A stretch of DNA of 64,000 nt, from NCBI RefSeq assembly GCF_023074835.1, contig NZ_JALLGW010000001.1, positions 2,356,001-2,420,000 on the forward strand. The letters are read 5' to 3'. Within the stretch, counting starts at the first letter, position 1. Each line of letters opens with the position of its first letter. The notes under the pieces are model-generated. The model searched no databases and was not told the DNA's origin. It worked only from the letters and a program-made list of their open reading frames with translations. Source of the stretch: Halomarina salina (lineage in GTDB: Archaea > Halobacteriota > Halobacteria > Halobacteriales > Haloarculaceae). Shown here one piece after another: positions 22,125-22,413 of the stretch. A program made the position numbers and the translations under genes.

Positions 22125-22130
22125 CAGCCC

Positions 22131-22355
22131 GTCCCACGCTGTCCGGAGCAGAACGCGGTGCGGCTGGGATTCGAACCACGGTCGCTCCACTCGCTGACGC
22201 TCCCTCCGCTCCCTGATTCAAATCCCACCTGTTCAGCATTCGCTGCTCACTGTCGTTCACGGTTCGCTCCGCTCTCCGTTCAGTGCGTGGGACTCGCTTC
22301 GCTCGTCCCACGCTGTTCGCAGCAGAATGCGGTGAGGCTGGGATTTGAACCCAGG
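22131..22355. repeat. Decayed direct and inverted copies of the tRNA-Ser 3' end
   Basis: A 51-bp segment at 22131-22181 matches 22305-22355 at 44 of 51 positions by hand alignment. The second copy covers the T-arm and acceptor 3' end of tRNA-Ser(UGA) plus 25 bp of its 3' flank. A third, inverted and more degenerate copy lies at about 22215-22250 (containing gattcaaatcccacc). The arrangement resembles duplicated attachment-site sequences left in the 3' flank of a tRNA gene by past integration and loss of an element. No integrase gene is present. Confidence 0.6.
22285..22313 (-). terminator. Hairpin in the 3' flank of tRNA-Ser
   Basis: A perfect 9-bp inverted repeat (gcgtgggac and gtcccacgc) with an 11-nt loop lies 17 nt beyond the tRNA 3' end. 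It could be a transcript-end or processing structure, or simply part of the repeated region. There is no U-tract next to it, so the terminator role is tentative. Confidence 0.35.
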
Positions 22356-22413
22356 AGGCAAATGCCACCGGTTTTCAAGACCGGCGCGATGGGCCAGGCT
22401 CCGCCACCTCACC
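22330..22413 (-). tRNA. tRNA-Ser (anticodon UGA)
   Basis: The minus strand folds as a type II tRNA of 84 nt including the discriminator. The acceptor arm pairs ggtgagg with cctcacc. The anticodon stem pairs ccggt with accgg around the loop cttgaaa, giving anticodon UGA (serine, UCA codons). A long variable arm (tggcatttgcct) is present, and the T-arm is ctggg-ttcaaat-cccag. The discriminator is G, as expected for serine tRNAs. No intron is present and CCA is not encoded. Confidence 0.95.

Follow-up and report, generated by a model that had tools for sequence, protein, structure and literature searches.

Background

Archaeal integrative elements with a tyrosine recombinase of the SNJ2/pleolipovirus type integrate at the 3' ends of tRNA genes and leave a copy of the tRNA end behind (PMC8371274). 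The window considered here, a stretch of 64,000 nucleotides from Halomarina salina, contains a tRNA-Ser(UGA) gene whose 3' end is repeated in its own 3' flank. A sequence-only reading had taken these repeats for the remnant of one or more integrations whose body was lost. In our analysis the tRNA-Ser(UGA) repeat is not the private scar of a lost provirus; it is one member of a dispersed family. The explanation that we prefer, and consider probable though far from secure, is that haloarchaea share a family of gene-less insertion units moved in trans, and that the feature in the window is a class-A member of it, probably with a second, truncated unit. No title or abstract in the open-access literature searched describes such units; a description elsewhere is possible.

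The repeats behind tRNA-Ser(UGA)

The tandem tRNA-Ser 3' ends noticed earlier are real. Direct copies of 51 nt at 22127-22177 and 22301-22351, spaced by 174 bp, are identical at 45 of 51 positions (88%; the earlier count was 44 of 51). The best 51-mer self-match in the 901-bp stretch around the tRNA gene is 45, compared to a mean of 31.7 and a maximum of 41 in 200 other 901-bp stretches of the window. The third, inverted and degenerate copy is also present (22209-22241 against 22325-22357, 33 nt, 73% complementary), but it is no loose copy: it is paired with the lower direct copy in a palindrome, as left and right arm respectively. Short hairpins exist in the stretch as described, one example being the perfect hairpin GTGGGAC-TCGCTTCGCTC-GTCCCAC at 22287-22311. 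An Rfam scan of the window stretch returned nothing but the tRNA above gathering score.

Table 1. Features of the tRNA-Ser(UGA) locus, in window coordinates
Feature	Position	Strand	Basis or remark
tRNA-Ser(UGA), host gene	22329..22413	(-)	ARAGORN; Rfam RF00005 tRNA, 54.7 bits at 22330-22413
X, first copy (TTCAAATCCCAGCCTCACCG), inside the tRNA	22330..22349	(-)	read from the sequence
Unit spacer, with perfect hairpin 22287-22311	22229..22328	(-)	read from the sequence
Class-A unit palindrome	22164..22229	(-)	model R1, 55.6 bits, E 1.2e-9, top match in own genome
Inverted arm (GTGGGATTTGAA)	22217..22228	(-)	reverse complement of T-loop and most of the T-stem 3' strand
Conserved motif TCAGGGA	22210..22216	(-)	conserved columns of alignment A1
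Variable inner segment	22184..22209	(-)	placed between the two conserved motifs
Conserved motif GACCGTGG	22176..22183	(-)	invariant columns of alignment A1
X, second copy (TTCGAATCCCAGCCGCACCG)	22156..22175	(-)	18/20 identical to first X copy
Start of second spacer, then unrelated sequence	22127..22155	(-)	51-nt repeat extends 25-30 bp past the tRNA end

The first X copy (Table 1) comprises the T-loop, the 3' strands of T-stem and acceptor, and the discriminator. The spacer is longer than usual, the median in other units being 46. Since the repeat overruns the tRNA end, and scars of like shape occur at another tRNA, the segment farthest from the gene (22127..22155) is probably a truncated second unit. 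To this lower end, and to nothing else at the locus, the idea of a remnant that has lost its body can still be applied. The direct copies enclose a whole unit of a recurring kind, which has an invariant core motif and a hairpin with covarying pairs and is found at 29 isoacceptors.

Anatomy of the units

The units are about 100-175 bp long, contain no gene and lie 3' of the end of a host gene, of which the last ~20 bp are called X. After the host X come a spacer hairpin, an inverted half of the T-arm, the core NCAGGGA...GACCGTGG, which encloses a variable inner segment, and another X. Read on the tRNA strand, class A consists of the reverse complement of T-stem and T-loop, then N, CAGGGA, the variable part, GACCGTGG and X. 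The same arrangement is seen in the 3' flanks of Ser, Arg and Lys tRNAs in loci from related genomes.

Among 31 units of equal length, 10 pairs have changed on both sides, and the covariation score is 0.270, compared to 0.115 when shuffled and at most 0.075 for slid structures. The columns of N-C-A-G-G-G-A and GACCGTGG are invariant or nearly so in alignment A1, an invariance that is partly built in, because the collecting pattern demanded most of those letters. All four palindromes whose DNA folding was tested beat their shuffles (z -3.5 to -7.4). The outer arms contain 97 G-T (G-U) and 71 A-C mismatches, and with these numbers there is no clear sign that one strand, or RNA as opposed to DNA, is the selected form. 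In a predicted RNA fold of window positions 22150-22413 (minus strand), the partner of the inverted arm is the T-arm of the tRNA itself.

Other forms were met on the way. A second class of unit, AGACGAG...CTCGGCGTGG, was spotted by eye in arrays. The T-loop is abnormal in 24 of 203 unit copies, mostly by 1-2 extra bases (TTCACAATCC and similar); such variants occur at several different tRNAs and at many loci (e.g. L041, L147 and L192).

Position and spread of the family

Most units, whether single or in tandem, lie 35-100 bp 3' of a tRNA gene; 29 isoacceptors are represented. Exact units lie within 600 bp 3' of a tRNA in 102 of 113 cases in loci L041-L150 and in 32 of 42 cases in loci L151-L190; several of the outlying ones, inspected by eye, seem to belong to tRNAs with introns or to tRNAs missed by ARAGORN, or are at contig edges. 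The covariance model R1, built from 31 units, has 19 matches in the genome of the window, the window unit scoring best. Eighteen of the 19 lie at most 362 bp 3' of a tRNA on the same strand, and the remaining one lies 1.3 kb 3' of a tRNA-Leu that has a second unit.

A 301-bp query stretch gave many partial matches in 59 related genomes, covering 22166-22226 as well as the tRNA. The exact class-A pattern matches 278 of the 391 genomes of the class, and the reversed pattern, used as a control, matches none. At least 80 matches are in named genomes; among the matches listed, all are haloarchaeal except one MAG titled only 'Euryarchaeota'. With the covariance model, 21 of 148 genomes sampled from the phylum match, each being the own genome or a member of its family or its order, and no genome of this sample outside the order matches. 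In one genus (g44, of family f12), 12 of 13 genomes are without an exact class-A unit, although the family has related genera in which such units abound. A search of plasmid and phage records found no unit; its matches, in plasmids of bacteria and in faecal phages, were partial and weak. One IMG/VR contig matches, and a complete tRNA adjoins its unit.

Which parts of a unit follow its host can be judged from 179 units at 29 isoacceptors, a non-independent set taken from loci selected by the pattern. Here the direct copy agrees with the T-stem of its own tRNA at 0.89, compared to 0.55 for other isoacceptors, and with the acceptor at 0.83, compared to 0.44; in 102 of the 179 it is perfect over 20 nt. 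The inverted arm also tracks the T-stem (0.72 own, 0.55 other isoacceptors); compared ungapped, it does not track the acceptor (0.30 and 0.29). Long inner segments at least 85% alike make 72 pairs, of which 28 join units of the same isoacceptor and 44 units of different isoacceptors. Taken together, the tracking by the direct copy and the 44 pairs across isoacceptors imply an inner part that is common to loci and a copied end that is local. A similar spread of the inner part could result from ectopic gene conversion among old units.

Slippage or unequal exchange might simply have duplicated the tRNA end in tandem, which would account for the direct copies and for nearly identical arrays. Such a duplication offers no source for the conserved inner motif, which is not derived from the tRNA, and leaves unexplained why this motif is shared across tRNAs and genera. 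As an account of the units we give it next to no chance, although tandem duplication may drive the growth of arrays.

Filled, empty and scarred sites

The sequence-only reading held that an integration-like process leaves copies of the tRNA 3' end, and related species bear this out with filled, empty and scarred versions of the same site. The clearest comparison is at tRNA-Leu(CAA) in a genus that appears to be Halorubrum, as the locus matches named Halorubrum loci (e.g. L074 and L101). In filled sites the tRNA is followed by a unit and then by TTCAAATCCCTCCCCTCGCAT and the flank CGCCGGGG...; in empty sites the tRNA runs straight into the flank CGCCGGGG... or its variant CTGGCAACAG...; in scarred sites (L279, L282, L283 and L289) the first part of the spacer is joined to the flank. 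By reading, and with locus L280 partly masked, there are ~16 filled, ~10 empty and ~4 scarred sites; these are tallies of states, in which gain and loss are not distinguished. The copied stretch in the tRNA-Leu(CAA) example is 21 nt. A second hairpin lies 3' of tRNA-Leu(CAA) in L258-L296 and L036 and finishes with one more copy of the acceptor end (CCCTCGCA); it is conserved across the genus and present in the genome of the window. Fixation of the same tandem copies across distant relatives had been named beforehand as a finding that would count against an integration remnant: the arrangement does occur in distant relatives, but at a given locus it is not fixed.

Nor are tRNA genes the only hosts. 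Tandem units lie 3' of a protein gene ending ...DWDGYRFEPV in L073/L208 and L209, which speaks against a requirement for tRNA function. The last codons of this gene read ACCGGTTCGAACCGGT in some genomes, which is a T-arm look-alike. In L209 the third copy has 19 nt in common with the last copy; in L208 the copies have only 13 nt in common with it. No unit motif occurs within 130 bases past the end of the gene at 14 of the 30 loci inspected (L212, L213, L216-L219, L222, L224-L229 and L234), a count that leaves aside loci with the gene end out of view (L211, L214, L215, L220, L221, L223, L230-L233 and L235-L237). L210, where the gene end is likewise out of view and the match extends 100 bp beyond most others, may hold a unit.

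These observations bear on the suggestion that the unit has a function for tRNA genes as an RNA or DNA element, for instance as a 3'-trailer structure or a terminator, and is inherited vertically and kept alike by gene conversion. The conserved core, the covarying hairpin and the predicted pairing of the inverted arm with the tRNA's T-arm would all suit such an element. Still, the same tRNA can be filled, empty or scarred within one genus, copy number varies, units also stand behind a protein gene, and G-U is not favoured over A-C among the mismatches (97 and 71). We consider a functional element quite improbable.

Arrays, larger elements and the search for an enzyme

Units form arrays, such as three 108-bp units in tandem at tRNA-Lys (L191) and a mixed array at tRNA-Leu (L200). 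Other palindromic inserts sit within the T-loop of copied ends in L010, in L204 and at the right ends of L327 and L328, with the layout TTCAAA, insert, TCCC. At one tRNA-Leu (L251, G000:C1), two units, at 2501410-2501465 and 2500107-2500162, stand ~1.2 kb apart with an ORF between them that is on the opposite strand and matches DUF5518 (PF17647); this stretch may be a gene-bearing insert in the array.

Larger integrase-bearing elements are found at the same kind of site, which agrees with the earlier suggestion of integration at tRNA 3' ends. In L118 a 2.9-kb insert between tRNA-Val and its unit encodes an ORC-CDC6-like protein and a broken integrase. The latter was not recognised by Pfam; in a single direct comparison it aligns with the integrase of G060 at 38% over 114 columns (E 7e-20). 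In both G060 and G045 the integrase gene stops just before an att copy, which is followed by a unit. Integrases of this family match those of SNJ2, HRPV-9, HHPV4 and other haloviruses, and by eye several of the family's loci show, past the right end of the element, either a unit or something related to one. Integrase-bearing elements stand between or beside a tRNA-end copy and a unit in L118 (1-3400), L327 (5451-6860, reverse) and L328 (5795-7190). Such co-location is expected if both use tRNA 3' ends. A nearby integrase was considered as the unit's own enzyme and rejected: in G060 and G045 the element terminates in an att copy of its own, and the unit is found past it. In SNJ2, Humcor2 and LSV-48N (three viral att regions) the sequence behind the integrase gene has no unit motif, and in the genome of the window no integrase is near the units, judging from PF00589 positions.

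An element bearing genes between the copies, as the remnant reading would have it, was looked for in loci totalling 1.4 Mb. The search found no unit split into halves around genes, and nearly all of its leftovers turned out to be intact units in which a base varied or the core had changed. No autonomous parent of the units appeared among the loci, the plasmid records or the phage records. A large integrated element with its body deleted has in its favour that bigger, integrase-bearing elements do use tRNA 3' ends in these genomes. What makes it very improbable is that the same short structure with its conserved core is present in most genomes of the class, in none of the loci searched with genes between its halves, and that the ends of integrase elements are without the unit motif, the unit lying beyond their att copy.

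A hypothesis for the movement of the units

How might units of the favoured kind move? A unit would have no enzyme and would be moved in trans by a putative site-specific recombinase whose recognition site would be the T-arm palindrome (GGTTCRAATCC, or sequences that resemble it by chance), with recombination taking place at or next to the T-arm loop. After each insertion the host 3' end would be present on either side of the unit, so that the host gene would stay unbroken. The X copies would also permit loss of the unit and tandem growth. As for the ~20-bp X copy itself, it might be duplicated at insertion, or it might be carried in by an element adapted to that site. Neither version easily explains everything. 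A carried-in end fits poorly with an X that matches the host at 29 isoacceptors; a duplicated end fits poorly with an inverted arm that tracks the T-stem and with the 13 nt of L208.

The duplicated end can be developed into a mechanistic variant of the trans-mobilised unit, namely a target-duplicating insertion. A staggered-cut integrase, as of the Cas1 type, would add ~75-100 bp at the T-loop and copy the next ~20 bp, and the copied end would then always match the host. The agreement of X with its host across 29 isoacceptors is what one would expect, and so are the 21-nt copied stretch at tRNA-Leu and, at the protein gene, the 19 nt that the L209 copies share with the last copy. The inverted arm, although it would be within the insert, also tracks the T-stem, and at L208 only 13 nt are common to the copies and the last copy. 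We regard this variant as possible but doubtful.

A bolder suggestion can be made as well. There might be a class-wide integron-like system, in which T-arms would be the primary att sites, hairpin units would be inserted serially via a folded single strand, and extra T-arm copies would be spare landing sites for gene-bearing inserts. We think this rather improbable.

Implications and comparison with known systems

If the units are mobile, they would be among the smallest elements that target tRNA genes, present throughout most of an archaeal class and equipped with their own means of leaving the host gene intact. They suggest a putative recombinase, and the absence of exact class-A units from most genomes of genus g44 is a lead for discovering the enzyme by comparison. 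They account for repeated 'tRNA remnants' that would otherwise be filed as dead provirus scars, and they offer a testable model in laboratory haloarchaea.

The SNJ2-type elements with which we began resemble the units in that the distal end repeats the tRNA 3' end (perfectly over 20 nt in 102 of 179 units), and they occur at the same loci. They are kilobases long with their own integrase and a short att, whereas the units are 100-175 bp long and gene-less, and the att regions of SNJ2, Humcor2 and LSV-48N are without the unit motif. MITEs are likewise short, gene-less, palindromic or bounded by inverted repeats, dispersed and presumably moved in trans. The units differ from them by a fixed T-arm target, a ~20-bp copy of the host 3' end, an inverted arm that tracks the target, and tandem arrays; the flanks of unit insertions have 13-21 nt common to both sides.

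In anatomy the units may be likened to integron attC sites and cassette arrays (described for archaea in PMC9668308), with an imperfect hairpin, invariant bases, a variable apex and what looks like serial insertion behind a primary site. The units, unlike cassettes, have no gene inside and have the host 3' end on both sides. CRISPR arrays also consist of a repeat (here X) and inserts and grow with duplication of the repeat; their spacers are diverse and foreign, whereas the inserts between X copies are one conserved family. REP/BIME palindromes of bacteria are dispersed and extragenic as the units are, but the units are tied to T-arm sites and to a copy of the host 3' end.
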